Shown here: positions 1 through 15,701 of the stretch, one piece after another
Layout of the letters: the number at the start of each line of letters is the position of its first letter
How positions within the stretch are numbered: the stretch's first letter is position 1
From: Alloalcanivorax xenomutans
GTDB taxonomy: Bacteria > Pseudomonadota > Gammaproteobacteria > Pseudomonadales > Alcanivoracaceae
Length of the DNA: 64,000 bases
Reading direction: 5' to 3'
Assembly: GCF_900217905.1 (NCBI RefSeq)
Contig: NZ_OBMO01000002.1
Coordinates: 124,922-188,921 of the forward strand
Notes under the pieces: model-generated
The model's database searches: none
What the model was told of the DNA's origin: nothing
Seen by the model: only the letters and a program-made list of their open reading frames with translations
Program-made: the position numbers and the translations under genes

Positions 1-19
1 TCTGACCTGCCCCCAGTCT

Positions 20-862
20 TTAATCCAACTGCTCCCTAGTAATGTCCGTTACTTTTGAATCAGTTTTTCCAAGTCGGAGAGCGGAGGCAAACTCCAGGGG
101 TGTCTGATACCCCAAGGATGAATGCGGTCGCCGCTCATTGTAGTCCAAGCGCCAGTTGCTGATCTTTTCGCGGGCATGAGCAAGATCCCGGAACCAATGT
201 TCATTCAGACACTCATCCCGGAATTTTCCGTTAAAGCTCTCGACGTAACCATTCTGCATCGGCTTTCCAGGCTGGATCAGCTTCAGCTCAACGCCATGAT
301 GGTAAGCCCATTGATCCAATGCTCTGCCAGTAAATTCCGGCCCCTGATCGGTTCTGACGGCCTTTGGATAGCCTCTGAAGGCCGCTATGCCATCCAGGGT
401 GCGGACCACCTGTTCGCCTGAGATTCCCATAGCAACGGGAATGTCGAGGCATTCCTTGGTGAAATCATCCACGATCGTCAGGCATTTGATCCTGCGCCCG
501 TTGGTCAAGGAATCCATGACGAAATCCATAGACCACGTATGATTCGGCGCATCGGGCAGAACCAAGGGCTGCCGTTCGACCATCACCCCTTTACGGCGCT
601 TGCGTTTGCGGACGGCCAAGCCTGCTTCCCAAAGTCGATAAACCTTTTTGTGATTCACCTCAGCACCCTCACGACGCAGCAACTGATGAACACGCCGGTA
701 CCCGAACCGGCGACGTTCGAACGCAATGGCTTTGATGCGCTCTGTCAGTTCACGCTCCTCGGGAGAACGCTGAGACTGATACCGCATCGTTGCGCGGGAT
801 AACCCGACGAGTGAACAGGCTTTGCGCTCGGATATCGTCGTCTCCGACAGCATGGTACGCAC
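20..862 (-). CDS. IS3-family transposase OrfB (DDE integrase), copy 1
   Basis: This is the catalytic half of the transposase. It acts on the element ends as an OrfAB fusion made by -1 ribosomal frameshifting. The N-terminal ~90 residues are the HTH_21-type region, followed by an rve integrase core. The DDE triad is visible as Asp113 (SMDFVMD), Asp172 (RTDQGPEF) and Glu208 (GYVESFNG), with the D-x35-E spacing typical of IS3. The open frame continues upstream without a stop into the end of orfA, where CGAAAG offers an A-AAG slippery site. The GTG at 862 is therefore probably not the main start. The sequence is the same as the second copy. Confidence 0.93.
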
Positions 863-885
863 AGCCTCGCGCTTGTTCCCGACGG

Positions 886-1155
886 TCAGTACTTTCGGTT
901 GAGAGCCGCCTTCAGAGCTTCTGTGTCCAGCATGGACTCGGCCAGCAGTTTCTTGAGCCGGGCGTTCTCTTCCTCCAGGGCCCTCAAACGACGGGCCTCA
1001 GAGACCTCCAAACCACCGTATTTCTTACGCCAGGTGTAGAAGGTTGCGTCCGAGATGTTGTACTTGCGACACAGCTCTTTGACCGGCAGGCCAGCCTCGG
1101 CTTCCTTCAGAATGGGAATGATCTGTTCTTCGGTGAATCGCTTCTTCATGTTCAT
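886..1155 (-). CDS. IS3-family transposase OrfA (HTH), copy 1
   Basis: This 89-residue DNA-binding subunit recognises the element ends. A helix-turn-helix lies at about residues 8-45 ([14 protein letters not shown], then [20 protein letters not shown]). A leucine-zipper-like coiled coil ([15 protein letters not shown]) follows, as in the IS407 group. It ends ALNRKY-stop; the -1 frame at this point leads into OrfB, so a fusion transposase is expected. It starts at an ATG followed by an in-frame ATG two codons later, near the right end of the element. Confidence 0.92.
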
Positions 1156-1217
1156 CGTCCTCTCTGGTGATGAACATTACTAAGATCAGAATGGATTAGA
1201 AAGTTGGGGGCAGGTCA

Positions 1218-1535
1218 GCCAGCTCGAATATCCAATGAACGCGCCGGCGTTATACCCCTTTACTTGACTCCCTATGAGACTTGAAATAAAGCAGAAAAAT
1301 CAGCCGCTTACAAACCCCACCGCAGACAGTCTCTTGATATCTTGACCAACGCTTCCTCCCAAACGCAAAAAGGCCGCCGACGCTCCCGCGCCGACGGCCT
1401 TTAACTAAGCCCTTACTAGCAACCTAAATCAAATCACTCCCACTCGATTATATTCTGCATATTTTTTTATTTAAAAATCAATAAGATACAAAAATAAAGA
1501 TGTTCAATGCCATGAAAAATACCATTGGGAAATTT
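1218..1535. other. Non-coding stretch between IS copy 1 and the McrC gene, with one hairpin
   Basis: I see no gene in these 318 bases. The only clear structure is a GC-rich hairpin at 1367-1402. The 100 bases next to the McrC stop codon are strongly AT-rich and contain no obvious promoter for a plus-strand gene. Confidence 0.6.
1367..1402. terminator. Terminator-like hairpin downstream of the restriction operon
   Basis: The arms AAAAGGCCGCCGACGC and GCGCCGACGGCCTTT pair with two mismatches or wobbles around a short loop, with A and T runs at the ends. It lies about 135 bases past the McrC stop, so it could end the minus-strand operon. Its GC-rich composition differs from the cargo, so it may be carried-over chromosomal DNA. 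Confidence 0.5.
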
Positions 1536-2843
1536 TCAATAAATGAATGCATGAGATACGGCATCGGCTAAGAAACTCGAAAACCGCTTTAAAGCTCCTC
1601 GCGATGAAATGCCCCGAACCTCAATCTGCATCCCAACTATCTGAACAGCATCCACTTGAACCCTCTCAAAGATTGTACAAGCCCCTGTCTCCTGCAGGGC
1701 GCCTCGGGGCTGCGCGGGGTACGCAAGCACTACCTTAGTAGCAGCAGCGGCTTTCGCAAACGCCAATGCCTCATAGACATCGGACTCGGAGATACGGAGC
1801 CTTCCTTTCTCAACGTGCCCTTTATATTTAGCGTCTAAAAGTATCCGCGGTCTCAATCCATCGGATTCGATCACACAGTCGGGATAGACTGATACGGGAG
1901 TAACTGCCCCGGTACTAGGTCTAGTCTTCGTCCCTAGCAGAAAACCTTTTTGTGACATTACAACTGAGGCGCCAAAACCCAAACGCGCTGCGACCGTTAG
2001 CAAATCCTCCCACACTCGCCACGTTGTTACCAAATACCCTGGGGCATGAGCTCTACCTTGCTGATAGCTGAGCCCCAAACCATCCAGCACATCCAGTGAG
2101 AGGCTGTGTAAGGGTTGCCAAGCTTGGTGCCTCGATGGAATTGGTCTACGTCGGCTCGTCGCTCCCCGTTGAGGGGAAAGCTCCTCAATTAGTCGCACCA
2201 AAGAGCCAACTACTGTCGGATCACGCACCTCGGGCAATAGGGCCTTAGCGGCACCCATGATATCAGCATTCCAACTATTCCATCGATCGAAACGAATCAC
2301 CTCTTGCTCAAACCCTTCAGAGGAAGGAAGAACCAAATCCACCGGATCAGGATCGCCGTCAATATAGAAATCCACCTCTCTAACCCTGCGATAGCTGCGC
2401 AAAGGTCGTCGTTTTAGGTCTGCATACATCCCCGTGAGTGATCTAGCAACCAAAGTCGCAAGGTCGCGAGGTGTGCCACCCGATGCTAACAAGCGCTCCG
2501 ACGCTAGCAGACGCCCATGGCGTGAAAGGGTGGAAAGAAAGAAAAAATCTTCGCGCCATCGAGCATCGAGCTCATCCAACCCAAGAAACTTAGGTGCCAC
2601 CTCGAGTTCAAGAGAAGGTGCTAACCGAATAAGTCCCGCAAAATCAGTTGCTCTTGCCCCTTTTTCACTCACACTTATCGGGTTATATCCCAGCCCCAAG
2701 CTTAACGCTGCTCGATTCCCCGCATCCATCAGCATTGCTTTTGCTTCGGCACGACCAATGCCTATAGCCGCAGCTATTTTTTGTACGACCTCAACTGGCG
2801 AGCCGTACTCCACGAGAGATAGCCGCTTCCTAGCATACGCCAC
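1536..2843 (-). CDS. McrC-like restriction nuclease subunit
   Basis: At 435 residues this has the architecture of McrC, the PD-(D/E)XK endonuclease partner of McrB. In McrBC the motor ring translocates DNA and McrC cuts. The nuclease signature is in the C-terminal third: the Pro-Asp of VYPDCVIES near residue 320 and LLDAKYK near 335-341, which supply the metal-binding Asp and the catalytic Asp-x-Lys. The N-terminal half (GLIRLAPSLELEVAPKFL region) resembles the McrC part that contacts McrB. It is the last gene of the operon, 2 bp after the McrB-like gene, so the two are almost certainly co-produced. No truncation is seen. The family call is strong. Whether it needs methylated or unmethylated DNA cannot be read from the sequence. 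Confidence 0.88.
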   Translation of the reverse strand: MAYARKRLSLVEYGSPVEVVQKIAAAIGIGRAEAKAMLMDAGNRAALSLGLGYNPISVSEKGARATDFAGLIRLAPSLELEVAPKFLGLDELDARWREDFFFLSTLSRHGRLLASERLLASGGTPRDLATLVARSLTGMYADLKRRPLRSYRRVREVDFYIDGDPDPVDLVLPSSEGFEQEVIRFDRWNSWNADIMGAAKALLPEVRDPTVVGSLVRLIEELSPQRGATSRRRPIPSRHQAWQPLHSLSLDVLDGLGLSYQQGRAHAPGYLVTTWRVWEDLLTVAARLGFGASVVMSQKGFLLGTKTRPSTGAVTPVSVYPDCVIESDGLRPRILLDAKYKGHVEKGRLRISESDVYEALAFAKAAAATKVVLAYPAQPRGALQETGACTIFERVQVDAVQIVGMQIEVRGISSRGALKRFSSFLADAVSHAFIY

Positions 2844-2845
2844 GA

Positions 2846-3982
2846 CTACTCCTGCGCGAACGCACGTAAGGCCGAATAGATATCGGCCTCTGACAAATTG
2901 GAAGGGCCCTCGAGCATGAACCTCAGGTCATCAGCAAAGGTGGTTTCAGTGAGTCGGAATGGATTGAAAGATGGCCCATCCAAGGCATTCAATGCAGCTG
3001 CGATGCCTCTAATATCACCAAAGAAAACCTCCTCTACATGAGCTCTAACTTTTGACCAGCCAATGCAGAGGATACTAAGTACTTCATCTAAAGATAGCCC
3101 TTGAAGATCACCGTCTGACATTAAGACCCCGTGACCGATTTGGTACTCACCTCCCCGCCCTAGCGATATACGTTTGTTCACCGCTACCCAAGCACGTACT
3201 GATGCTTCCAATGCTTGATTAGCATGCTCAGGCTGGTCGGGAAGGTCATCCTCTGTATAGGCTGGTAACGCATAAAATGCCCGTAGCGCCGCCTCTTCAG
3301 GCTCAAGTCGTAGTGGTTCCCACCGCCGTAAAAAGGCCACATCTAACGGTTCTACAGAAGCATCAGCTTGATTCATTGCCGCTAAAATATACAAATCGGA
3401 CGGCAGCGCATACTCAACGATCTCACCTGTATCAGGATCGAGCAGTTCAAAGTATTGGGTTTCAGCTCTCGCGACACCATTGGGGTCAAGACGCTTGTCT
3501 GACTCTATAGCTACAATTGCACCACCAAAAGCTTGAACTGCAGGCCCCCGATTAATTTCATCTATTATCAAGAGTGCCGCGCCATTTGGTGATTTTGCAT
3601 GTTCGCTAGCCCTATAAAGAGTTCCCTTTACGATAGTAAAATCACCGTCACCCTCGGACTTATTAATTGCCGGAGTTATACCTGAAACAAAGTCACGATA
3701 TTTAGTATTCTGATGAAAGACTGTACGAAACACCTTTCTATCAATTCTTTTTGGTGCAGGAATATCGCTTGAATCCGTGCCAGACGAAGGTGGTATAGGT
3801 ATACCTCCGATAGGATTAAGCTTTGGCTTCCCATGTTTCATCGTGACTCCAAAACCTGTTTCGAATGCCAAAGCGACTTCAGCAAGTAGCTTAGACTTTC
3901 CTGTTCCTGGAGGCCCTGATATCAAAACGTTACGCGAACGCGCCAAGAGCTTCAATGCTTGCTTGCAGGCCTCACTTACCAT
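2846..3982 (-). CDS. McrB-like AAA+ motor of the restriction system
   Basis: This AAA+ NTPase probably forms the hexameric motor that drives the McrC nuclease. Visible motifs are Walker A GPPGTGKS (residues 23-30), Walker B LLIIDEINRG (137-146), MNQAD at 203-207 and paired arginines FLRRW at 218-221. In E. coli McrB the equivalent of MNQAD is MNTAD, linked to GTP use; here Thr is replaced by Gln, so nucleotide preference is open. The protein begins almost at Walker A. At 378 residues it lacks the N-terminal DNA-recognition domain of E. coli McrB, so recognition must come from another subunit, perhaps the preceding gene. It overlaps that gene by 11 bp. Confidence 0.88.
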   Translation of the reverse strand: MVSEACKQALKLLARSRNVLISGPPGTGKSKLLAEVALAFETGFGVTMKHGKPKLNPIGGIPIPPSSGTDSSDIPAPKRIDRKVFRTVFHQNTKYRDFVSGITPAINKSEGDGDFTIVKGTLYRASEHAKSPNGAALLIIDEINRGPAVQAFGGAIVAIESDKRLDPNGVARAETQYFELLDPDTGEIVEYALPSDLYILAAMNQADASVEPLDVAFLRRWEPLRLEPEEAALRAFYALPAYTEDDLPDQPEHANQALEASVRAWVAVNKRISLGRGGEYQIGHGVLMSDGDLQGLSLDEVLSILCIGWSKVRAHVEEVFFGDIRGIAAALNALDGPSFNPFRLTETTFADDLRFMLEGPSNLSEADIYSALRAFAQE

Positions 3983-4565
3983 TGCAATACCTATCTAGGC
4001 TGGAAAAGTCCCGATACCCAATCACAGCACGATTTGAAGGCCGACTCGCATCTATACAACCTAATATCTCATCGGCCACTACAGGGTCCCATACTCCTTT
4101 AGTACGCAAAGTCTTTTCCTCTGCATAATATGGCCACACTGTCCCATCATATAGCTGTATAAGAAGCAAGATGACACGATTACCTACCCCGCCTACAGGC
4201 AAGCGCTTCGTATCAAAACAACCGTACTCATGAACACGTGCTATGCGCCCTTCAGCAGGCCGGACATCAGTAGGTGGTTCAAAAAAGGACTCCTTCGATT
4301 CCTCATTCCCAACATCGTTTAGCCAAAAAAACCTGCCTTGAAACACGTCAATCTCGACAGTCGATCCTCGCTTTCGCTTTTGCTTAACGACGTTGGGGAA
4401 CATCATCTTAATAATGGGTAGAAGCTTGCTGTATGAGCCGAACCGGAAATCTCGAGCACCGCCCCCCGAATCCGAGTCATTGGATTGGGCTAATATTTTC
4501 CTTATATCGCCAGGCACGATTTCTTTATACAAAATTCGGGCTACATCCTTTGATCCATTAGCCAC
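3972..4565 (-). CDS. Uncharacterised protein of the methyltransferase/McrBC operon, possible recognition subunit
   Basis: I do not recognise this soluble protein of about 197 residues. It has no signal peptide or membrane segment. Its middle is aromatic and basic (ARDFRFGSYSKLLPIIKMMF, then KQKRKRGSTVEIDVF), followed by an acidic stretch and a C-terminal region with WPYYAEEK. I chose a GTG start at 4565 because a strong Shine-Dalgarno (AAAGGAGAG) precedes it. An ATG at 4595 would translate that ribosome site into the lysine-rich MKTKKKEREG and has no site of its own. It overlaps the end of the methyltransferase gene and the start of the McrB-like gene, so it is tightly coupled to both. Because the motor lacks a recognition domain, a DNA-reading role is a reasonable guess, not an observation. 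Confidence 0.6.
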   Translation of the reverse strand: MANGSKDVARILYKEIVPGDIRKILAQSNDSDSGGGARDFRFGSYSKLLPIIKMMFPNVVKQKRKRGSTVEIDVFQGRFFWLNDVGNEESKESFFEPPTDVRPAEGRIARVHEYGCFDTKRLPVGGVGNRVILLLIQLYDGTVWPYYAEEKTLRTKGVWDPVVADEILGCIDASRPSNRAVIGYRDFSSLDRYCNGK

Positions 4566-6786
4566 CCCTTCTCTCTCCTTTTTTTTGGTCTTCATTCATT
4601 CGCACGAGTTCAGACGGGACATAAGCTATTGCCCCTAAATTCTGAGCATCAACAACCCGCTGGCTCCATAACTTGGCGTCTTCGGCAGTTCGTTTTGCAA
4701 CAGTCGCCAGAACCGTATCACGAGTGATTGTCGACTTTGCTTCTGCCGGAAGCGGAGGCTGCCCGCGATCCAATATTGGAAAATCTTTCAATATCAGGTT
4801 CATATCCTGCAAGCTCAAGCCATAAGCTACTGCTATTTCAGCATCTATTTCAGCCCGAAGCTCAGCCACGCGCTTCCATACTTCATCTGAAGCCCCACTA
4901 AAATCGAGAGTTTGCAGCTCCCGCGAAGCATTTTCGAGCCTTTTCCATGGCAAACCACCTTTCGCAAGCTTCGGCATCGGGACGCTTTGAAGCAAAAAGT
5001 AATTCACTGTGGTAGTGAGAACTCGTCTGAGCATCCAGTCAAACACAAAGCTGTTCGCGATAGCCAACCATACATAAAGCCGATCTTCCGACGGATCTTC
5101 TGGAAATACAATAGTAGGAACCTTGTTCCCACAAACAACGCCTGGTGGTATTAATGCAGCCATGAGCGATCGCTCATTTGTCTGCCCAGCGATATCGCAA
5201 AAACCAACGCGCACTAGCCCCACTCGGTGCTGATTAGCTGAAGGTATATCGGCAGGAGATATCCAAAACTGAGGACGCAAGCGTGAGGCACCAATCGCGT
5301 AGGCTTCCCACTCGGCGCTCCGCCCGCTACCAGCCACATGACCTTTTACGCCAAAGCGGTGCGCTTGCACCATTCGCCCCTCCACAAGCGGGAGCGCCCC
5401 GTGTAAAGGACGGTCAGTAAACTTTGACCGTTCCTTTGTCATATCTACCTCTCGGCAAAACTTAGGTGCCCAACCATTACCTGGGCTCGTCCAAGAGATT
5501 CCCGCCTCCGTAATTTTGGTAAAAAGCCTCCATTCAGCTCCGCTACGAACCTCCGGAATACTCAAATCCTCTCGCGTAGCAGAGAGCGCAGCACGTCCAA
5601 TTGTTGCTGTCCCTGTAACCTCCACACCATTAGGTGTGCCTCGCTCATGTAGAAGCTGGATCGGATCACGCTTTCTCTTGTCGGTACCAGATTTAACTAA
5701 TGCTACAGCCAAGAATTTAAAGCGAGTATCTATCGCAAAGAATCGCGCCCTGTTATCGAGAATTGATATCGATATGCTTTGACAAGCATCAAATACTTTA
5801 CGACGTATTCCTTGAGTTCCTTGCGAACGAATCAACCCGCCGGGCACTAAGGCGGAAACTATTCCTTGATCTTTGCAAAGACTAAAAAACAAGTCAGTGA
5901 AGGCAATATACAAGTCTGGATCACCACTACCGAGGATAGGGTAACGCTCGAGTAACCGGAGAGAATAAGTAGCAACCTTTTCACGTTGCACCGAGAACTT
6001 GTCTTCGTCCATGCTCTCAATATTCGCTCCGTAGTGGCGTTTTTGGCCCGAAGACTTGAGAAACTCATGCCGAGAGATCTTTACTTTTTCCCAAGGCGGA
6101 TTTCCGATTACAGCGTCGAAACCACCTGGAGCCATAGACTCCCAAACTTCGGGCGGTGCCATCAAGCTATCGCCGCAGTACCAGTTGGACCGCATAGCCT
6201 TCAGAACAGACAGATCATCTGTAAAAACAGCGAGACTTAAAATGGCCCCACGCAACGAATTTTCAGATAAATCTGCTGCATATACGCAATTGGCCAACCA
6301 GTAAGCCGCTTTGGCTCGGTCCATACCACATACAGCATAGGTCAATGCTGCCAAGAGCATTCCCGCGCCACCCGCCGGGTCTATGACTTTGCTCTCATGT
6401 GTAAGCTTTGGGGCGGCTAGTTGAGCTAGTCTACTAGCTAGTCGGAAATCTGTATGGTATGCACCAGTTCTTTTCCGATCACCTTCATGCAACGACTCTC
6501 TTGCCAGCGCACTTAGTGCTAACGCTGGAGCGATAGGAGTACGTTCAATTGCGCTGACAACTCCAGCAGCCAAGCCCAACAGCTCACCTGTAGGGCATTG
6601 ATTTTTCACTCCAAAAACTTCTTGAAACTTCCCTAGGTCAAATCCACCAAATCGTGAAGCTACCGCTTCCAATATCTGAAGCCGCAACTCATATCCTGAA
6701 GCTCCTCGCTCATACCCCATCGCCTCCAAAAGAGGCTTCTCTACTGCCGCCAAATACTCCATTTCCAACGGTTTTGGTGAGCTCAT
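4558..6786 (-). CDS. N6-adenine DNA methyltransferase, Eco57I/TaqI-like, with C-terminal recognition region
   Basis: This 742-residue protein should transfer a methyl group from S-adenosylmethionine to adenine in a specific DNA sequence. A motif X-like GAYHTDFRLA lies at residues 108-117, motif I DPAGGAGML at 136-144 (a variant of DPxxGSG) and catalytic motif IV GNPPW at 228-232. This is the order found in gamma-class N6-adenine methylases. The last ~300 residues look like a target-recognition domain of the TaqI/Eco57I type. I see no PD-(D/E)XK nuclease motif, so it is probably not a self-contained type IIG enzyme. It overlaps the upstream methyltransferase gene by 4 bp (ATGA). Confidence 0.85.
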   Translation of the reverse strand: MSSPKPLEMEYLAAVEKPLLEAMGYERGASGYELRLQILEAVASRFGGFDLGKFQEVFGVKNQCPTGELLGLAAGVVSAIERTPIAPALALSALARESLHEGDRKRTGAYHTDFRLASRLAQLAAPKLTHESKVIDPAGGAGMLLAALTYAVCGMDRAKAAYWLANCVYAADLSENSLRGAILSLAVFTDDLSVLKAMRSNWYCGDSLMAPPEVWESMAPGGFDAVIGNPPWEKVKISRHEFLKSSGQKRHYGANIESMDEDKFSVQREKVATYSLRLLERYPILGSGDPDLYIAFTDLFFSLCKDQGIVSALVPGGLIRSQGTQGIRRKVFDACQSISISILDNRARFFAIDTRFKFLAVALVKSGTDKRKRDPIQLLHERGTPNGVEVTGTATIGRAALSATREDLSIPEVRSGAEWRLFTKITEAGISWTSPGNGWAPKFCREVDMTKERSKFTDRPLHGALPLVEGRMVQAHRFGVKGHVAGSGRSAEWEAYAIGASRLRPQFWISPADIPSANQHRVGLVRVGFCDIAGQTNERSLMAALIPPGVVCGNKVPTIVFPEDPSEDRLYVWLAIANSFVFDWMLRRVLTTTVNYFLLQSVPMPKLAKGGLPWKRLENASRELQTLDFSGASDEVWKRVAELRAEIDAEIAVAYGLSLQDMNLILKDFPILDRGQPPLPAEAKSTITRDTVLATVAKRTAEDAKLWSQRVVDAQNLGAIAYVPSELVRMNEDQKKGERRGG

Positions 6787-7874
6787 GCAAAACTTCCTAC
6801 TAAGCCATCAGCAGAAATACTTTTCTTCGGTCTGAAATCCGCTTCACGTTCTTTAACCCGTTCTACCACCACAAGAAACTCGCTGACTTCCGAAGCTGTT
6901 TCGCTTGCAACCTTATTAGGGCGGTATCTCCCGATACTACCTAACGGGTACATCGTCGACTTGCCTGCCTTAGAAAGTTCCACCTTCATATCAGGCATTG
7001 ATATATGTCCTTCACTACTATAGGAGAGAAGTATTTTTTCAGCCTTTAAGCTATTAACTAAATTTGAAAGCGCTTTTAAAGCTCTTGTTTTGTAGCAGAA
7101 GTCGGATGCGAGCTCTTTCCATGGCCTTAGACCCGCAACCCCTTCAACCTCGGGCCGATCACCTATCGCCAGAGTCTCTAGAATATGGTAATAGCTGGCG
7201 TACTGACGTTTAGTATAAGGCGGATCTAAGTACACAACGTCCTGCGATCTATTTGGAACGTCAAACACATCCCCAACTACGGCCTCAACACGCACCGTCT
7301 TTTCTTTGAGTTCGCGGCAACGAACCGCAATCTCCCCTTGCGACTGTGTGGTCCACTTGGAAAGAAAACAGCCGAAGGTCCCTGCTATATTAGCTACCCG
7401 ATTCAAAGCTCCAAAAAGGTCAGCAATCAACAGCCTCTCTTCTAATTCATCAATACTACCTGAATCCCTCCATTCAGCTATAAGGTCTCGCATAGCATCG
7501 ATACGCGCGGCATTTGTTTCTGTAAAATAACGTCTTTCTATACCACAAAAATCGTAAGACGCAGGGCTATATTCACGCCATATAAACCCTTTCTTCGGAG
7601 GCGCATTATTCAATCTATAAACCGCTGACTCATAACCACCTAGCCTTTTGAAGGCTGCTTGCTTTTTACTTATTAGTCGAGCACCGGCTGAAATCACAGC
7701 AGAATAAAGATTGTCATTAATTCTGACATTCCAGCCTAGCTTAGCAGCGGCCTCAGCCACTACTCCCGTGCCACAAAATGCATCCACAAAAAACGCCCCG
7801 TCTTTAGGTGGGGGCATATGATCTACAATCTGATCAATCAGCCGAGATTTTGATCCAAGGTATCGAAAGGTCAT
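6783..7874 (-). CDS. D12-class (Dam-like) DNA adenine methyltransferase
   Basis: This 363-residue alpha-class adenine methylase modifies N6 of adenine in DNA. Its N-terminus FRYLGSKSRLI (residues 3-13) is the characteristic MethyltransfD12 opening that binds S-adenosylmethionine, followed by FVDAFCGTG (29-37). The catalytic motif DPPY is at 217-220 (YLDPPYTKRQYASYY). It is larger than E. coli Dam, as in restriction-linked relatives. It is a second, unrelated adenine methylase in the same operon; two such enzymes often modify the two strands of an asymmetric site. It overlaps the upstream regulator gene by an ATGA and is preceded by the ribosome site GAGGGGAG. Confidence 0.87.
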   Translation of the reverse strand: MTFRYLGSKSRLIDQIVDHMPPPKDGAFFVDAFCGTGVVAEAAAKLGWNVRINDNLYSAVISAGARLISKKQAAFKRLGGYESAVYRLNNAPPKKGFIWREYSPASYDFCGIERRYFTETNAARIDAMRDLIAEWRDSGSIDELEERLLIADLFGALNRVANIAGTFGCFLSKWTTQSQGEIAVRCRELKEKTVRVEAVVGDVFDVPNRSQDVVYLDPPYTKRQYASYYHILETLAIGDRPEVEGVAGLRPWKELASDFCYKTRALKALSNLVNSLKAEKILLSYSSEGHISMPDMKVELSKAGKSTMYPLGSIGRYRPNKVASETASEVSEFLVVVERVKEREADFRPKKSISADGLVGSFA

Positions 7875-8104
7875 TTTACTCCCCTCACGTAAGACCTATG
7901 CTTCTCCTCACCCCAACTTCTCGCGACTGGAGTATTACTTTCATCAATTGCGATACCTTTTCGATCGCAATACTCGCTAAGCAACACTTCGAGCATGTTT
8001 ACCATGCTGCGCTGCTCGCTGCTCGCAACCTTTTTCAATGCCCATTTAAAGCTGGGGGAAACACGTAAATTCAATGTCTCACTCTTGATTTCAGAAAACT
8101 TCAT
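7871..8104 (-). CDS. Small ribbon-helix-helix-like protein, first gene of the restriction operon
   Basis: A 77-residue protein with a beta strand (ETLNLRVSPSF) followed by two helices (KWALKKVASSEQ and SMVNMLEVLLSEY), the layout of CopG/Arc-type DNA-binding proteins. As the promoter-proximal gene it is well placed as an autorepressor or timing regulator, a role often filled by a small controller protein in restriction systems. Two GCTAA(A)GT repeats lie about 35-50 bp upstream of its start. It shares an ATGA with the next gene. The fold assignment is from sequence pattern only; an antitoxin is an alternative, but no toxin gene is nearby. Confidence 0.6.
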   Translation of the reverse strand: MKFSEIKSETLNLRVSPSFKWALKKVASSEQRSMVNMLEVLLSEYCDRKGIAIDESNTPVARSWGEEKHRSYVRGVK

Positions 8105-8137
8105 AGAGAGCCCCGCAAGTGTCTGTGCAATTGCGTT

Positions 8138-8183
8138 ACTTTAGCAAACTTAGCTTTAAAACGCCATCCTGACGGGGCTTCAA
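8138..8183 (-). promoter_or_regulatory. Putative promoter and operator of the restriction operon
   Basis: On the minus strand, TTGAAG (8183-8178) and TTTAAA (8160-8155) are separated by 17 bp and could be -35 and -10 boxes. Directly downstream sit two direct repeats, GCTAAGT (8154-8148) and GCTAAAGT (8145-8138). They span the expected transcription start, an ideal place for repression by the ribbon-helix-helix protein. Confidence 0.45.
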
Positions 8184-8257
8184 CCTTTCGTTTCTAGCGT
8201 CTGTTCAGCCTCGCTTATTCACAAATTCTTCAACCTCCCCTGACCTGCCCCCAGTCT

Positions 8258-9100
8258 TTAATCCAACTGCTCCCTAGTAATGTCCGTTACTTTTGAATCA
8301 GTTTTTCCAAGTCGGAGAGCGGAGGCAAACTCCAGGGGTGTCTGATACCCCAAGGATGAATGCGGTCGCCGCTCATTGTAGTCCAAGCGCCAGTTGCTGA
8401 TCTTTTCGCGGGCATGAGCAAGATCCCGGAACCAATGTTCATTCAGACACTCATCCCGGAATTTTCCGTTAAAGCTCTCGACGTAACCATTCTGCATCGG
8501 CTTTCCAGGCTGGATCAGCTTCAGCTCAACGCCATGATGGTAAGCCCATTGATCCAATGCTCTGCCAGTAAATTCCGGCCCCTGATCGGTTCTGACGGCC
8601 TTTGGATAGCCTCTGAAGGCCGCTATGCCATCCAGGGTGCGGACCACCTGTTCGCCTGAGATTCCCATAGCAACGGGAATGTCGAGGCATTCCTTGGTGA
8701 AATCATCCACGATCGTCAGGCATTTGATCCTGCGCCCGTTGGTCAAGGAATCCATGACGAAATCCATAGACCACGTATGATTCGGCGCATCGGGCAGAAC
8801 CAAGGGCTGCCGTTCGACCATCACCCCTTTACGGCGCTTGCGTTTGCGGACGGCCAAGCCTGCTTCCCAAAGTCGATAAACCTTTTTGTGATTCACCTCA
8901 GCACCCTCACGACGCAGCAACTGATGAACACGCCGGTACCCGAACCGGCGACGTTCGAACGCAATGGCTTTGATGCGCTCTGTCAGTTCACGCTCCTCGG
9001 GAGAACGCTGAGACTGATACCGCATCGTTGCGCGGGATAACCCGACGAGTGAACAGGCTTTGCGCTCGGATATCGTCGTCTCCGACAGCATGGTACGCAC
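8258..9100 (-). CDS. IS3-family transposase OrfB (DDE integrase), copy 2
   Basis: This encodes the same 280-residue protein as the first copy, with Asp113, Asp172 and Glu208 intact. It is expected to be made mainly as an OrfAB fusion by -1 frameshifting at CGAAAG just before the orfA stop. An identical active copy on each side would allow either single-element or whole-unit transposition. Confidence 0.93.
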
Positions 9101-9123
9101 AGCCTCGCGCTTGTTCCCGACGG

Positions 9124-9393
9124 TCAGTACTTTCGGTTGAGAGCCGCCTTCAGAGCTTCTGTGTCCAGCATGGACTCGGCCAGCAGTTTCTTGAGCCGGG
9201 CGTTCTCTTCCTCCAGGGCCCTCAAACGACGGGCCTCAGAGACCTCCAAACCACCGTATTTCTTACGCCAGGTGTAGAAGGTTGCGTCCGAGATGTTGTA
9301 CTTGCGACACAGCTCTTTGACCGGCAGGCCAGCCTCGGCTTCCTTCAGAATGGGAATGATCTGTTCTTCGGTGAATCGCTTCTTCATGTTCAT
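9124..9393 (-). CDS. IS3-family transposase OrfA (HTH), copy 2
   Basis: This encodes the same 89-residue helix-turn-helix and coiled-coil subunit as the first copy and should bind the element's terminal repeats. Outward transcription from this element would run leftwards into the restriction operon and could add to its expression; no outward promoter was identified with confidence. Confidence 0.92.
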
Positions 9394-9455
9394 CGTCCTC
9401 TCTGGTGATGAACATTACTAAGATCAGAATGGATTAGAAAGTTGGGGGCAGGTCA

Positions 9456-10188
9456 GATCCGCATCAAACGCGCAACTGGTGGGGCGAGGGACCGGCAATG
9501 AGATCAGGTGCTCCAGGCCACCGCGCGGACAGATCCGGGCGATCGCGGCACCGTCGAAGAGCACACTGAGCAGAAAGCCCTCCCGATCGATCGTCAGCCC
9601 GTCCGGTTTGCCCAGGTTCGCATCAATATGGAGCCATTCCCGGCGATCACGGACGCTCCCCGAATCGGGATCATAAGCGTAGGCATGGATGAGGCCTCGC
9701 CGTGAATCCGTCACATAGAGGGTTCGCCCGCCACGGCTCCACTGGAGGCCATTGATGAGCGTGAACCCGGAATCCATAACGCGCCATCGCAGGTCCGGCT
9801 CCAGGCAATAGAGATAGCCGCTCCCCTCACTCAGTTGTTCATCCATCAAGCCAACCCACAGGCGGCCGGCCGGATCCAGACGGGCATCATTCAATCTGTA
9901 GCCGTCCCGCGCGTGCGGCGCCGTGGCGACTCGCCGCACCACGCCGGATTTATCCACCGTTGCCACATCACAGCCAATCCCGATAATCAGTTCGCCAGCC
10001 TGATTCTCGGTGACGAAACCCAGTGGGCCAGGCATCGGTTGTCGGACGTTCTCGCCGGTCGCCGGACAGTACCTGTTGAGGGAGGCAGCCATCGTATCCA
10101 CCCACAGCAAGCCGTCGCCGAAGCGGCTCCAGACCGGGCTCTCGCCCAGCATTGCCTGCCCCGGAAACGCCACCGATACGGCGCTCAC
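9456..10188 (-). pseudogene. SMP-30/gluconolactonase-family gene, 3' end cut off by the transposon
   Basis: The remaining ~244 residues are an SMP-30/LRE-like calcium-dependent lactonase propeller: GESPVW (residues 15-20), YRLNDARLDPAGRLWVG in the middle, then INGLQWS, TLYVTDS and KPDGLTID. The family continues past PVPRPTSCAF with a final blade, but here the frame runs into the IS end after FDAD and stops at 9424 after ten IS-encoded residues. Full-length relatives have about 290 residues, so roughly 45 are lost along with a conserved C-terminal metal-site region. The missing end should lie to the left of the window. Its start overlaps the SDR gene by 4 bp, suggesting a sugar- or lactone-related pair. 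Activity is probably lost. Confidence 0.85.
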
Positions 10189-11054
10189 GAACGAGGTTCC
10201 TCGTTGCCCACGGCAATGCGCGACCAGCGCGCGGCGACTTCGTCGGTGGTTGCAGCCCGGACCGCGCGCAAATCGCGAGGGTAATCCACACCCGCGGCTT
10301 CCATCGCCCTGGTGGCATGAAACTGACCGTTCGCGGCGCGCAATACCCAGCCGCCTTCCGTGCAGTTTCGGGACGCCAGGAACGCCACGCCGGGTGCGAC
10401 CTCGGCGGGAAGCAATTCGTCCGGTTCATCCTCGATCCCCCACATGCGGGTTTTCGCCACCGGCGACACCGCATTGACGACGATGCCGTGTCGCCGGCCT
10501 TCGGACGCCAGCACGTTCATGATGCCGACCACGGCCATTTTCGCGGCAGCGTAGGACGCCAGCCCTTCCTGAACATACTGGGGATAGAGTGCCCTGCAGG
10601 AGGTGGTCAGGACGATACGGCCGTACCCCGCCGCCTTCATCGCGGGCCAGACAGCCTGAGCAAGCCACAGGGAAGCCTTGGCGGTAACCGCCATCATCCG
10701 ATCAAAGGACTCTTCTTCCAGCACCTCGATCTTTTCGTAGGCGACCCATCCCGCATTGTGGATCAGGGCGTCCAGACGTCCTCCTCCGACGGCCAAAGCC
10801 CTGTGCAGCAGTTCAATGCACGCCTGCCGGGTATCGATGGTCCCCGGTAGGGCATGGACATCCAGCCCTTGCGAACGCAGTTTTGCCGCCACGTGCTCCC
10901 CCACCTTCAGGTCCCGTCCATGGCCGCCAGTGTCCGCACCGGAATCCTGGATCAGAACCTTCGCGCCCTGCTCGGCGATGCATCGAGCGTAGGCCAACCC
11001 AAGACCGCGCCCGGCTCCGGTGATGAGCACGACTTGCCCGTCAAAGTCCGTCAT
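10185..11054 (-). CDS. Short-chain dehydrogenase/reductase
   Basis: This 289-residue classical SDR carries the cofactor loop TGAGRGLG (residues 13-20), HNAG near 96 and the catalytic tail YAAAK near 170, with the matching Ser in VLTTSCRAL. The N-terminal region resembles the (3R)-hydroxyacyl-CoA dehydrogenase part of multifunctional enzyme 2. The ~50 residues after the Rossmann core are longer than in FabG-type enzymes. It is the first gene of a two-gene operon with the truncated lactonase, and a LysR gene is divergent. NAD(P)-dependent oxidation of a sugar or hydroxyacyl substrate is likely; the substrate is unknown. Confidence 0.8.
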   Translation of the reverse strand: MTDFDGQVVLITGAGRGLGLAYARCIAEQGAKVLIQDSGADTGGHGRDLKVGEHVAAKLRSQGLDVHALPGTIDTRQACIELLHRALAVGGGRLDALIHNAGWVAYEKIEVLEEESFDRMMAVTAKASLWLAQAVWPAMKAAGYGRIVLTTSCRALYPQYVQEGLASYAAAKMAVVGIMNVLASEGRRHGIVVNAVSPVAKTRMWGIEDEPDELLPAEVAPGVAFLASRNCTEGGWVLRAANGQFHATRAMEAAGVDYPRDLRAVRAATTDEVAARWSRIAVGNEEPRS

Positions 11055-11106
11055 TGCTTACTCCCACAGCCTCTTGAGGATTCTCAAGGAGCTTAGGAGT
11101 CGCTGT

Positions 11107-11150
11107 TTGATATATCCAATACCATTAAAGTAGCCTGTTAATATATTGAA
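11107..11150. promoter_or_regulatory. Candidate LysR operator region between the SDR and the broken LysR gene
   Basis: Two short AT-rich near-palindromes, TTGATATATCCAA (11107-11119) and TTAATATATTGAA (11138-11150), lie in the divergent intergenic region. LysR-type regulators often bind paired sites of T-N11-A type. Assignment to this regulator rests on position only. Confidence 0.35.
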
Positions 11151-11183
11151 AGTATCAAGCGAAGAGCCCTCCGGAGGTGAACC

Positions 11184-12083
11184 ATCACCACTACCGATCC
11201 CCCTCGCATCAGCCTGCGCACGCTTGAACAGTTTGTCGTGGTGGCGGAAGAGCTGCACTTTCACCGGGCGGCGGCGCGGCTGAACATGTCGCAGCCTCCC
11301 CTCACCCACGCCATCAGAAAGCTGGAAGACGAACTCGGCGTCATCCTGATCAAACGGGACAAACGCGTGCTTGGTTTGACCGACGCCGGCCGGACTTTTC
11401 TTGAACAGGCCCGTGAGACATTGCGCCAGGCGGAACAAGCGGTCACCGCCACACGGGATGTGGCGGCCGGCCGCACCGGAGTGGTGCGCCTCGGCTATGT
11501 AGGAAGTGCGCTCTATGGACGGTTGCCGACGGTCATTCGCCAGTTTCGTTCGACTTATCCAAAGGTGCGCCTGGAATTACGCGAAGCGACCACCGCCGCG
11601 CAGATCGCCGCGCTGCGAGACGGAGAGCTGGACGCGGGCGTTCTCATTCCACCTCTGACCAACGCCCAGGATATTGCTGTCACTCCATTTGACCACGACC
11701 GTCTGTGCCTGGCCCTTCCCCGGGACCACCCGCTGAGCCGGCGCTCCGACCTTGCCCTCACCGAACTGGCGGACGAACCGTTCGTACTCTGACCCAGCGT
11801 TGAGGGAAGCGGCTTTTATCTTCAAGTTGTCCATCTCTGCGCCGATGCCGGTTTCGTTCCCAGGGTCGCGCAGGAAGCACACGGCATGCACGCCGTGCTG
11901 TCCCTGGTGGCCGTCGGCGTTGGCGTCGCCATCGTGCCCGAAAGCATGAAGGGCTTTCGCGAAGACTGGATCCGCTACCACCCACTGCCGGCCCCCGGAG
12001 CCGCTTTCGAACTGGTACTGGCCACGCGCGATCCCTCGCCACCGGTGCGGGCCCTGGTCCGCTCCTTCGGGGCCTCCGGCTAA
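11184..12083 (+). pseudogene. LysR-family regulator, interrupted by an in-frame stop and lacking a normal start codon
   Basis: The first part encodes the winged helix (HFHRAAARLNMSQPPLTHAI) and start of the effector domain up to DEPFVL. A TGA at 11790-11792 then stops the frame. The same frame continues with PSVEGSGFYLQ and on to FGASG, exactly where intact relatives read through, so one codon was lost to a stop. The 5' end is also odd. A good ribosome site (GGAGG at 11173-11177) is followed by ATC at 11184, not ATG. The first usable start in frame is GTG at 11238, which would remove part of helix 1. It is divergent from the SDR/lactonase operon that it may once have controlled. Sequencing error is possible for either defect. 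Confidence 0.75.
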
Positions 12084-12105
12084 TCCACCCCCAAACCAAC
12101 GCGGG

Positions 12106-12525
12106 CTACTCGCCCTGCAAGGTCGCCACTATTCCGCGCGCGCCGCCGTGATCACGGTGCTCGCACAGATAAATCCCCTGCCAGGTTCCCAGGGCCAGGG
12201 TCCCATCATGGAGCGGCAATGACAGGGACGGCCCGATCAGCACGCTCTTGATGTGCGCGGGCATGTCGTCCGGCCCTTCCAGGGTGTGCTCGTAGTGCGG
12301 CGCGTCCTGCGGCACCATCACATTGAAATGGCGCTCCAGATCTCCGCGCACATCCGGGTCCGCGTTTTCGTTGACGGCCAGGGACGCGGAGGTGTGCTGG
12401 ATGAACAAATGCAGCAGCCCCACCCGGTAACGCCCCAACTCCGGCAGTGCCTCGACCACTTCACGGGTGATCAGGTGAAAGCCCCGGGCACGGGGCTTCA
12501 GGGTGATCGTCTGCTGGTACCACAT
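12106..12525 (-). CDS. YjbQ-family protein (secondary thiamine-phosphate synthase type)
   Basis: A 139-residue single-domain protein of the UPF0047/YjbQ family, essentially full length. The conserved [13 protein letters not shown] segment (residues 44-56), [15 protein letters not shown] and the C-terminal [15 protein letters not shown] are visible; their histidines and acidic residues form the presumed active site. Some members have weak thiamine-phosphate synthase activity, but the cellular role is not settled. It starts 3 bp after the hydroxyacid dehydrogenase stop, so the two are co-transcribed. It converges with the broken LysR gene. Confidence 0.9.
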
Positions 12526-12528
12526 GGC

Positions 12529-13497
12529 TCATCCTCCCTGGTTGACGACATTGACCGGCTGTCCGTTCCGCCAGGCATGGATGTTCTCCACGACCTGGTC
12601 GACCATACGCTGACGGCATTCGGTGCTGACCCAGGCGCTGTGAGGGGTGACGATCAGATTCGGCACATCGCCACCGAGCAGAGGGTGATCCGCCGGTGGC
12701 GGCTCCTGGCTGAGCACGTCGAGGGCGGCACCGCCCAGATGCCCGGCCCGCAATGACCGCTCCAGTGCCGCTTCGTCCACCAATGGCCCGCGGGCGGTAT
12801 TGATCAGGAAAGCACCGGGGCGCATGGCGGCCAGGAAATCATCATTAACCAGTCCCTGGGTGTCTTCGGTGAGTGGACAATGCAGACTGATAACGTCGGC
12901 GCGACGGAGAAACTCGGGCAGCGGCACCCGGTCCGGCGCCGGGCCCGCGCCGGGGCGCAGTGACGCGGCCACCAGCACGTCCATTCCCATTGCCCGGGCG
13001 ATGGCCGCCACCTGCCGTCCCAAAGCGCCGTAGCCGATAATGCCGAGGGTACGGCCTGCCAGGTCCACCACCGGGTAGTCCATGCGACAGAACATGGTGG
13101 ATTCGCTCCAGCGGCCCTGTTGGGCATCCCGGTCGTATCGATGCCATTGCGTGGCGAGGCCCAGCATCAGCGCCACCGCATGCTGTGCCACGGTGGCGGT
13201 GGAGTAGCCCACCACATTGCTGACCACGATGCCTTTTTCCCGCGCCGCGCCCAGATCCACGTTATTGGTGCCGGTGGCGGAGATACCGATAAACTTGAGG
13301 TCCGGACACGCGTCCATGGTGGCCCGGTCGATGACCACCTTGTTGGTCACCGCCACGGCGGCGCCGGCGAGACGTTCGGCCACCTGCTCCGGGGCGGTGC
13401 GGTCATGGAAGGTCCAGCCGGACAGCGCGGCCCGCAGCGCCGACAAATCCAGCTCGGAGGGCTTGATGGTTTCGATGTCGAGAAATACGCCTTGCAT
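12529..13497 (-). CDS. D-2-hydroxyacid dehydrogenase (glycerate/hydroxypyruvate reductase-like)
   Basis: This 322-residue cytosolic enzyme of the D-isomer hydroxyacid dehydrogenase family reduces a 2-keto acid with NAD(P)H or runs in reverse. The Rossmann signature LGIIGYGALGRQVA is near residues 150-163. Catalytic Arg is in NTARGPLVDE, the Glu lies in the following segment near LSQEPP, and catalytic His is in TPHSAW near 285. The N-terminus (FLDIETIKPSELDLSAL) and ISATGTNNVDL resemble glycerate dehydrogenase (HprA). It is the first gene of a pair with yjbQ and is divergent from the DUF523 gene. Glycerate versus another short hydroxyacid cannot be settled here. Confidence 0.87.
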   Translation of the reverse strand: MQGVFLDIETIKPSELDLSALRAALSGWTFHDRTAPEQVAERLAGAAVAVTNKVVIDRATMDACPDLKFIGISATGTNNVDLGAAREKGIVVSNVVGYSTATVAQHAVALMLGLATQWHRYDRDAQQGRWSESTMFCRMDYPVVDLAGRTLGIIGYGALGRQVAAIARAMGMDVLVAASLRPGAGPAPDRVPLPEFLRRADVISLHCPLTEDTQGLVNDDFLAAMRPGAFLINTARGPLVDEAALERSLRAGHLGGAALDVLSQEPPPADHPLLGGDVPNLIVTPHSAWVSTECRQRMVDQVVENIHAWRNGQPVNVVNQGG

Positions 13498-13533: not shown

Positions 13534-14178
13534 ATGCTAACGGAATTGCTCAGAGAAATGGGCTTCGAGCCTTCCCAGGGACGCCCGGAGCGGCCACGGG
13601 TGGCGGCCAGCGCCTGCCTGCTGGGCCAGCCAGTGCGCTACGACGGCGGCCACAAATACCATGCCGGCGTGGCCAACACCCTGGCGGCCCGGGTTACCCT
13701 GGTGCCGCTGTGTCCGGAAACCGCCATCGGCCTGCCGGTGCCCCGTCCTCCCATCCAGGTGGTGCTTGTGGGCGAGGCGCAGCGCGTGCGCGGCCTGGCC
13801 ACGCCGAACGATGATTTCAGTGATGCGCTGGCGGAGTACGCCGACAGTCTGGCGCCGGCACTGGATGGCATGGTGCTGAAGTCGCGCTCGCCCAGTTGTG
13901 GCTTTGGCACCACACCACTGCACAACGAGAGCGGCGCGGAAGTCGGTGTCACCAGCGGCGCTTTCGCCGCCCGGCTTCATGCCCGCCTACCGGCCTTGCC
14001 GCTGTGCAACGACAGCGATTTGGATGGCGAGGGCGCGCTGGCCAGTTTCCTGCTGCGGGTCCACTGCCATCATCACTGGCGCCAGGGAAGGTCTCTCGCC
14101 GATCTGCGACAGCGGACACAACACCTTGCCCGGGACCTGCGACAGCCGCTACAACGGTATTTACAGCGTTTTTCTTGA
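13534..14178 (+). CDS. DUF523 family protein (TudS-like thiouracil desulfidase)
   Basis: The 214-residue protein has the three cysteine motifs of DUF523: SACLLGQPVRYDG near residues 28-40, CPE near 63 and SPSCGFG near 118. In characterised TudS these cysteines hold a [4Fe-4S] cluster that removes sulfur from 2-thiouracil. I place the start at ATG 13534 (MLTELL) because the frame upstream lies antisense to the hydroxyacid dehydrogenase. A C-terminal extension of ~60 residues rich in His and Arg (HCHHHWRQGRSLADL) follows the core. It lies 59 bp before betB and may be read with it. Confidence 0.85.
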   Translation: MLTELLREMGFEPSQGRPERPRVAASACLLGQPVRYDGGHKYHAGVANTLAARVTLVPLCPETAIGLPVPRPPIQVVLVGEAQRVRGLATPNDDFSDALAEYADSLAPALDGMVLKSRSPSCGFGTTPLHNESGAEVGVTSGAFAARLHARLPALPLCNDSDLDGEGALASFLLRVHCHHHWRQGRSLADLRQRTQHLARDLRQPLQRYLQRFS

Positions 14179-14237
14179 GATCGGCAGCCAGCGCCGCCAC
14201 TCTTTCAAGATCCCCTTTCGTCAAGCGAGGCCTCCCC

Positions 14238-15701
14238 ATGACACAGCACAGCGACCGACAACTCTGGATCAACGGCGCCTATCGGCCGGCCCGCAGCGGG
14301 GAATTCTTCGACACCCACAATCCCGCCACCGGCGAAATAATCTGTCGCGTGGCTCTGGCCGGCGCGGACGATGTGGATGACGCCGTGGACGCCGCCAAGG
14401 CCGGCCTTGAGCAATGGCGCAGCCAGAGCGGCGCCGCCCGTGGCCGCGTGCTGCACCGCGCCGCCGCTCTGCTGCGCGAACACCGCGACGAACTGGCGCG
14501 TCTGGAATCCCTGGACGCCGGCAAGCCGCTGGCGGAAACGCCGGAAGCGGATGTGGATTCCGCCGCCGATTGCCTGGAGTACTTCGCCGGCCAGGCATCC
14601 TCCCTGCAGGGGGAGTATCAGCAGGTGGAAGGCGGCTTCTTCTACACCCGCCCGGAACCACTGGGTATTTGCGCGGGTATTGGCGCCTGGAACTACCCGT
14701 TACAGATCGCCGCCTGGAAATCGGCACCAGCCCTGGCCGCCGGGAACGCCATGATCTTCAAACCAGCGGAGCTGACGCCGCTGTCGGCGCTGCGACTGGC
14801 GGAGCTGTTCAAGGAAGCGGGCCTGCCCGATGGCGTGTTCAATGTGGTGCAAGGCTTGGCCGAAACCGGCCAGGCACTGAGCCGGCACCCCGATATCGCA
14901 AAAATCTCGCTCACCGGAGAAGTGGGCACCGGCAAGGCGGTGATGCGCGATGCCGCCGGCACGCTGAAAGCCGTTACCCTGGAGCTGGGCGGCAAATCAC
15001 CGCTAATCGTGTTCGAGGACGCCGACCTGGACAACGCGGTCTCCGGCGCCCTGCTCGGCAACTTCTACACCCAGGGCCAGATCTGCACCAACGGTACCCG
15101 GGTGTTCGTGCACCGCTCGGTGAAAGACGCCTTCGTGGAAAAACTGCTGGCGCGCACCCGTGCCTTGAAAGTCGGCGATCCACTGGACGTCGACACCCAT
15201 GTCGGCCCGCTGATCAGCGAAGCCCACATGCGGACGGTGCTCGAGTATATCGAGACCGGTAAGCGCGAAGGGGGGCAGCTGCTGATCGGCGGAGGCCGGG
15301 TCACCGTGCCCGGTCTGGAAAACGGCCATTTCGTTGAGCCCACCATTTTCGACGGCCTCGACGACAGTATGACCATCGTACGCGAGGAAATTTTCGGCCC
15401 GGTGATGTCGCTGCTGACCTTCGATGACGAGGACGAGGTGATCCGGCGCGCCAACGACACCGTTTTCGGTCTGGCCGGTGGTGTGTTCACCGCCGATTTG
15501 AGCCGTGGCCATCGCATGGCCGATGCACTGCAGGCCGGGATCGTCTGGATCAATCACTACAACGTGACCCCCATCGAAATGCCGTTCGGTGGCATCAAAC
15601 AATCCGGCATCGGCAAGGAAAACAGCCGCCGGGCCTTCGATCACTACACCCGGTTGAAAACCGTGTTCGTGGCCCAGGCTCCGGTGGACTCGCCTTACTG
15701 A
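14238..15701 (+). CDS. betB: Betaine aldehyde dehydrogenase
   Basis: This 487-residue NAD-dependent enzyme oxidises betaine aldehyde to glycine betaine, the osmoprotectant. Catalytic Glu lies in TLELGGKSP near residue 253 and catalytic Cys in QGQICTNGTRVF near 287. The N-terminus (LWINGAYRPARSGEFFDTHN) and WNYPLQIAAWKSAPAL are typical of BetB. The ATG at 14238 starts the family-typical N-terminus. It converges on betA and the two coding ends overlap by 7 bp. This is unusual because betB is normally co-transcribed with betA. Assignment is supported by the adjacent choline dehydrogenase and transporter. Confidence 0.93.
   Translation: MTQHSDRQLWINGAYRPARSGEFFDTHNPATGEIICRVALAGADDVDDAVDAAKAGLEQWRSQSGAARGRVLHRAAALLREHRDELARLESLDAGKPLAETPEADVDSAADCLEYFAGQASSLQGEYQQVEGGFFYTRPEPLGICAGIGAWNYPLQIAAWKSAPALAAGNAMIFKPAELTPLSALRLAELFKEAGLPDGVFNVVQGLAETGQALSRHPDIAKISLTGEVGTGKAVMRDAAGTLKAVTLELGGKSPLIVFEDADLDNAVSGALLGNFYTQGQICTNGTRVFVHRSVKDAFVEKLLARTRALKVGDPLDVDTHVGPLISEAHMRTVLEYIETGKREGGQLLIGGGRVTVPGLENGHFVEPTIFDGLDDSMTIVREEIFGPVMSLLTFDDEDEVIRRANDTVFGLAGGVFTADLSRGHRMADALQAGIVWINHYNVTPIEMPFGGIKQSGIGKENSRRAFDHYTRLKTVFVAQAPVDSPY

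Follow-up and report, generated by a model that had tools for sequence, protein, structure and literature searches.

A conserved, mobile operon of Alloalcanivorax xenomutans joining two adenine methylases to McrBC-like subunits: a probable restriction-modification system of the LlaI/LlaJI kind

The window analysed here, a stretch of 64,000 nucleotides from Alloalcanivorax xenomutans (contig NZ_OBMO01000002.1, positions 124,922 to 188,921), contains an operon of six genes (g1 to g6, Table 1) which is real, conserved and mobile and most likely encodes a restriction-modification system. Judging from sequence comparisons and a predicted fold, it is probably a mobile type II system of a type IIS-like character, belonging to the LlaI/LlaJI group, in which two methylases would protect the host DNA, the g4 product would read the unmethylated site, and the g5 and g6 products would cut. 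All six genes are located on the minus strand, from 8104 to 1536, and neighbouring genes either overlap (g1/g2 and g2/g3 by 4 base pairs (bp) each, g3/g4 by 38 bp, g4/g5 by 11 bp) or, in the case of g5 and g6, are separated by 2 bp. The six reading frames and their catalytic motifs are intact, the proteins containing DPPY, NPPW, GPPGTGKS, LLIIDEINR, MNQAD and PD...DAKYK. Frames, Pfam matches and motifs thus confirm what an earlier reading, made from the sequence only, had described as six overlapping or touching genes in one direction, with a D12 methylase, an N6 methylase, an AAA+ motor and a McrC-like nuclease.

The two methylases belong to different families. The product of g2 matched Pfam MethyltransfD12 (1.7e-31) and a PADLOC type II methyltransferase model (6.9e-66), and that of g3 matched Eco57I (PF07669, 5.2e-11); the closest curated NCBIfam model for g3, TIGR02987 (Alw26I/Eco31I/Esp3I), scored 111.5 bits, which is below its cut-off of 353.5. 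Both proteins match N6-adenine families and neither matched a cytosine-5 family; cytosine methylases of the LlaJI or BsuMI type were rejected on these family matches. The g5 product matched AAA_5 (Pfam, 2.3e-12) and the McrB chains 6hz4 and 6ut3 (4e-13 to 4.7e-13), while g6 matched the McrBC family (PF10117, 4.6e-11), its residues P321, D322, D337 and K339 being invariant across 11 aligned sequences. The Walker A motif of g5 occupies residues 23-30 of 378, whereas in the McrB of a cytosine-methylase-linked locus (L032) the AAA match begins at residue 268, so that this protein has an N-terminal region which g5 lacks; the recognition role is therefore left free for g4. Family searches of g4 to g6 matched no reader of the SRA, EVE, YTH or DUF3578 type, and a canonical type IV McrBC was rejected because of the lack of a modified-base reader in these three proteins and the presence of two linked methylases. 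The NxD GTPase signature that defines the CoCoNuT systems (PMC11090510) is absent from g5, which carries NxxD (MNQAD in the window).

The conservation of the operon was assessed in 19 g4-bearing loci: the window, four genome contigs, five plasmids (out of six matching records, H4, a second one from Pimelobacter, being left out), four Escherichia coli genomes (out of seven with a DNA match, among 5426 genomes) and five viral contigs. Most of the loci were found using g4, or DNA spanning g4 to g2, as a bait, which introduces a sampling bias. Genes g2-g3-g4-g5-g6 keep their order and strand in 17 of the 19 loci, the window counted, and a recurrence of this kind shows that their linkage is not due to chance. 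The genes are thus not found elsewhere only separately, a possibility which the sequence-only reading had raised, and its idea of homologous loci conserving all six genes holds for the five core genes and fails for g1, which was recognised in only eight loci and is therefore not part of the core. One of the two exceptions (L010) is truncated by the start of the plasmid record, with a D12 gene elsewhere on the same plasmid. In the other (L014, E. coli KE41), g2, g3 and an intact g4 are open at 5915-9829, and no McrB or McrC was detected within the fetched 14.9 kb; this arrangement was found in one of the 5426 E. coli genomes. L010 and L009 (plasmids, Sphingobium baderi and Sphingomonas sp.) have identical g4 and g5, and their g6 proteins are 99.7% identical over 348 amino acids (aa), the McrC reading in L009 being short (367 aa). 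The D12 gene of S. baderi is so far from g4 that an insertion may be suspected.

The linkage is also visible when the search is started from the other end of the operon. All five viral contigs that were found by McrB or McrC profiles also have g2 to g4 and thus all five genes; the McrC profile (E up to 1) returned the same six plasmid records as g4, and the McrB profile (E up to 0.01) returned 273 plasmid records, in which, after those six, the next best among the matches listed was 28% identical. Across 16 distinct five-gene sets (L013 was dropped as a near-copy of L007), the five genes are correlated in their pairwise identities, with r of 0.90-0.99 and each with p of 0.001, the floor for 999 permutations. 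Each of the 16 sets contains DPPY, NPPW, Walker B and DAKY, and each also has Walker A and NxxD if the variant forms of L009 are counted.

The carriers include Alteraurantiacibacter, Pseudomonas songnenensis, Acetobacter fabarum, a Desulfuromonadales metagenome-assembled genome, Sphingobium, Sphingomonas, Citrobacter, E. coli and the actinobacterium Pimelobacter, and the carrying elements include plasmids, a conjugative element and viral contigs. Chromosomal copies that match the Citrobacter plasmid locus (L007) at 99.8-100% identity occur in four of the 5426 E. coli genomes, and both L007 and L013, the one fetched of these four copies, stand among conjugative-element genes. One viral contig (L028, 1-20990) carries the five-gene system inside a phage-like genome with an integrase, an O-like replication protein, a terminase and a portal. 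The system is rare: g4 was found in 6 of 72,556 plasmid records, in none of 50,697 phage records and in none of 397 other genomes of the phylum sample. Two scans of viral contigs baited with g4 returned nothing, though McrB and McrC baits gave five g4 carriers there, which means that searches with the g4 pattern can miss distant members. In L028, the operon lies between the replication gene and the terminase and portal genes, and a protein matching ParB-like and methyltransferase families is encoded just downstream of it. In E. coli MS 16-3 (L012), where the operon stands among conjugative-element genes, a phosphorothioated-DNA-binding restriction endonuclease is annotated near it, at 13891-14763.

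The g4 protein had no family match in Pfam, PADLOC or NCBIfam, and its profile found no match among PDB sequences. A single-sequence AlphaFold model reached a predicted local distance difference test (pLDDT) score of 35, and the best model from six sequences reached 70.7, with a predicted template modelling score of 0.74. Compared with the PDB by Foldseek, the latter model matched the recognition domain of BfiI at rank 1 (3zi5, E 7.6e-4, probability 1.00), the B3 domain of UbaLAI at ranks 2 and 3 (0.017, 0.036), an unrelated structure at rank 5, and the plant B3 protein ARF1 at rank 6 (0.076, probability 0.14); nothing was matched at E 0.001 in a library of viral structures. The predicted fold suggests that g4 is a free-standing B3-like DNA-recognition domain. 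As no reader domain precedes the Walker A motif of g5, g4, which overlaps both g3 and g5, would be the natural reader of the system. The recognition half of BfiI was reported to resemble plant B3 factors (PMC4081073).

Kinship of g2 bears on the kind of site that may be recognised. The surroundings of ten more distant plasmid relatives of g2 were compared, H92-H94 (about 36% identity) being left out. Seven of the ten adjoin nucleases of the FokI type (L018-L020) or the AlwI type (L017, L023, L025 and L026); two others stand by other putative nucleases (L021, an HNH protein, and L022), and L024 by insertion sequences. L018 has two D12 stretches in a single protein, while L017 and L026 have two methylase genes. 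Since FokI and AlwI are type IIS systems, and since some of these relatives carry paired D12 stretches or two methylase genes, an asymmetric site with one methylase for each strand appears likely. Such an asymmetry is suggested only by the different classes of g2 and g3 and by the relation of g2 to methylases of the FokI and AlwI type.

In the most probable reading, g2 would mark one strand of an asymmetric site and g3 the other, so that the host DNA is protected, and g4 would read that site when it is unmethylated and load the McrB-like ring formed by g5. We infer that g5, using a nucleoside triphosphate (GTP or ATP), would then translocate DNA and drive the McrC-like g6 to cut. The type IIS-like model is proposed because of the conserved linkage, the type IIS kinship of the D12 methylase and the predicted B3 subunit. 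For the same reasons, the earlier suggestion that adenine methylation marks self and that the motor and nuclease attack unmarked DNA is the best-supported part of the sequence-only reading, whereas its other part, an attack on differently marked DNA, is less likely as no modified-base reader was matched in g4 to g6.

When present, g1 would probably regulate the operon. It was detected in 8 of the 19 loci and had no convincing match in nine others. RHH_5 was matched by g1 of the window at 0.086 (Pfam) and by all seven homologues scanned, always weakly (best E 0.0081) and alongside equally weak matches to unrelated families; the matches to Arc-like repressors of PHROG were at 0.0057-0.0087.

LlaI, BsuMI and LlaJI have been placed in one group of type II systems related to McrBC, with paired type IIS methylases and cleavage of unmethylated DNA (PMC2614495). 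LlaI, which is related to McrBC, acts on a sequence in its unmodified form and depends on two methylases (PMC3874153). It was overlooked by the earlier reading, which knew of no described system with this gene set; in its narrower sense the statement stands, as no description of the exact set was found in the open-access literature among the matches listed. A likely LlaI locus (L031) was found by the McrB search on the Lactococcus plasmid pUCCL629C, at 5543-12685. It is partly broken, with the methylase frames in pieces, annotated as adenine methylase, and with long, open motor and nuclease frames. The assignment to LlaI is made on gene order, methylase kinship and the neighbouring AbiA gene, which we take to link it to the LlaI plasmid pTR2030, and not on identity to the original record. 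The g2 profile matched a methylase piece of L031 (2.2e-22), and the g5 profile matched its motor (4e-15; hhalign 4.4e-12), in which AAA_5 begins at residue 8; in both motors Walker A is located near the start and a reader domain is lacking. Both systems have a separate, unassigned gene between methylase and motor and a nuclease gene after the motor, occur on plasmids and would both rely on adenine methylation, which on the LlaI side agrees with the annotation of L031 and the D12 profile match. The LlaI methylase is a single adenine enzyme with two domains, like that of FokI, whereas here two proteins of two classes are encoded; the second is Eco57I/Alw26I-like and not D12, and only g2 is related to the pieces in L031. 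The LlaI operon also includes a small control gene. The system of the window probably works like LlaI and has the kinship of methylase and motor and the split architecture in common with it, although not all of its subunits allow an assignment to LlaI.

LlaJI likewise joins two methylases to McrB- and McrC-like subunits, and its B3 domain reads an unmodified asymmetric site; the B3 reader may be paralleled here by the predicted fold of g4. However, LlaJI has cytosine-5 methylases and carries its B3 domain within the McrB-like protein, whereas here the methylases are adenine enzymes and the B3-like domain is encoded by a separate gene. BsuMI, with its paired methylases, differs in having cytosine methylases and three R genes, and is set apart by its description only. 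The FokI/AlwI systems resemble the operon through the relatives of g2 but have simple nucleases without a McrB motor. In BfiI, UbaLAI and EcoRII, which are fold matches of g4, the B3 domain is fused to a nuclease, and these systems have no McrBC. McrBC of E. coli (type IV) shares the McrB motor and McrC nuclease, but has no methylase and reads modified cytosine. PcaRCI, which is thought to be mobile, also restricts unmethylated DNA with a McrBC-like pair (PMC8989522), but it has one Dcm-like cytosine methylase (CCNGG) and its McrB-like protein carries a divergent N-terminal domain of its own. A census of McrBC from 2024 mentions branches of McrB that are associated with methyltransferases and leaves their treatment to a separate publication (PMC11090510). 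The system is a variant of the LlaI/LlaJI kind and not a new kind.

The history of g4 allows another division of roles, in which g4 would be a shared specificity subunit, comparable to HsdS of type I systems, that directs both the methylases and McrBC, so that a swap would change both specificities. Between L007 and L011 protein identity is 88% for g2, 91% for g3, 93% for g5 and 94% for g6, but 62% for g4, and the uncorrected synonymous difference is 0.82 (saturated) in g4 against 0.28-0.43 in the five other genes. In 100-column windows, DNA identity is 91-95% before this region, 74-76% at the end of g3 and the start of g4, 40-63% over the remaining part of g4 and again 91-95% for the first 300 columns after it. 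The comparison of L007 with L003 is similar (g4 61%, g3 91%, g5 93%, g6 95%; DNA identity of 78-86% after g4 and later above 90%), while L003 and L011, which have like g4 alleles (88%), show no dip over this gene. The retention of g4 with the methylases in KE41, where McrB and McrC were undetected, is a further hint, from one genome, that g4 serves the methylases; against this, KE41 may be a recent deletion. Exchange is not specific to g4 either. L003 departs strongly from both L007 and L011 in g1 and over the first 500 bases of g2 (64-74% DNA identity in the 5' part of g2; synonymous difference of 0.83-0.85 in g1 and 0.63-0.66 in g2), and L011 has a lower-identity stretch within g3. As these sequences read, the operon is mosaic beyond g4 too, which weighs against a special role of g4. 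Moreover, g2 and g3 are sized like self-sufficient methylases, and the match of g3 to type IIG models (PADLOC) covers their C-terminal part, where target recognition usually resides in type IIG enzymes. Altogether a shared subunit seems unlikely, though it is the strongest of the alternatives.

A smaller probability still is given to a type IV-like arrangement, in which McrBC with g4 would attack foreign modified DNA and the adenine methylases would merely coexist as a separate modification unit. McrBC proper is modification-dependent, and its linkage to methyltransferases has been read as competition between epigenetic systems (PMC2614495), but none of the modified-base readers sought was matched in g4 to g6, the best fold of g4 is B3, and the five genes overlap and diverge tightly together. 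It is also conceivable that insertion sequences carried the operon along as a genomic island that is silent and has no present function in its host, as the low G+C content, the flanking insertion sequences and the absence of g4 from 192 other relatives (searched for g4) would allow; this we consider the least probable, given the six intact frames and catalytic motifs and a ratio of nonsynonymous to synonymous change of 0.06-0.18 among homologues where computable, the window itself being saturated in synonymous change and not computable.

Several observations weigh against a type IIS-like system with g4 as its reader. A replacement of g4 without a paired change of methylases is not expected of a specificity subunit that serves the nuclease only, unless the target is unchanged. 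No methylase change matching that of g4 is visible, since the methylases of L007 and L011 (g2 88%, g3 91%) are no more unlike than those of L003 and L011 (82% and 89%). If g4 served the nuclease only, a new target would be expected to kill the host. Either the g4 alleles read one and the same site, for example under the pressure of phage inhibitors, or g4 is shared with the methylases. The g4 model was built from only six sequences, and its five versions range in pLDDT from 70.7 down to 42.1 (two above 66, the others 42-44); the match to 3zi5, the sole one in the PDB passing E 0.001, has template modelling scores of 0.47/0.55 and a root-mean-square deviation of 5.8, and for full-length EcoRII at rank 4 (0.051) the aligned part is not displayed. 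Motif I of g3 was unrecognised in 3 of the 16 sets with the patterns used. The closest plasmid relatives of g2 outside the family are H92-H94, at about 36% identity, and the listing of H94 names an HNH protein. Finally, the g6 profile has no significant match to the L031 nuclease (E 0.11, hhalign probability 1.9), and the gene that takes the place of g4 in L031 (8058-8813) is not similar to it in sequence.

In the window, the operon is bracketed by two identical 1.2-kb insertion sequences in one orientation (Table 1), and G+C content is 0.47-0.52 over positions 1-8000 against 0.56-0.68 beyond. The two copies might delimit a composite transposon; the N run adjoining the left copy is located just outside the window. 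A reading frame at 9424-10188 resembles SMP-30/gluconolactonase by eye and seems to be curtailed at the right copy.

Table 1. Genes of the operon and its flanking insertion sequences (positions in the window)
Feature	Position	Strand	Size and description
g1	7871..8104	-	77 aa; perhaps a ribbon-helix-helix (Arc/CopG-like) regulator; optional
g2	6783..7874	-	363 aa; D12-class N6-adenine DNA methyltransferase (DPPY); distant FokI/AlwI-type kin
g3	4558..6786	-	742 aa; Eco57I/Alw26I-like N6-adenine DNA methyltransferase (NPPW)
g4	3972..4595	-	207 aa; stand-alone subunit with a predicted B3-like DNA-recognition domain
g5	2846..3982	-	378 aa; McrB-like AAA+ motor with NxxD signature, without N-terminal DNA-reading domain
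g6	1536..2843	-	435 aa; McrC-like PD-(D/E)xK nuclease (PD...DAKYK)
IS3-family insertion sequence, left copy	2..1218	-	IS3 transposase model; borders an assembly gap (N run)
IS3-family insertion sequence, right copy	8240..9456	-	Orientation as left copy

The exchange of g4 poses a puzzle, in that a restriction reader appears to have been swapped while the host, with methylases that remained much as before, survived. It is improbable, though conceivable, that g4 is an exchangeable specificity cassette serving the methylases and the motor nuclease alike; if so, it would be a type I-like subunit on a B3 fold, and one recombination in a 0.6-kb gene would re-target modification and restriction together. 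In the more probable case of a type IIS-like system, the operon would add to the McrBC-like type II systems a branch that is based on adenine and has two methylases, with hosts ranging from E. coli to an actinobacterium and with a further copy in a phage-like genome. As reader, motor and nuclease would be single proteins, the loading of a McrB ring at an unmodified site would become directly testable.

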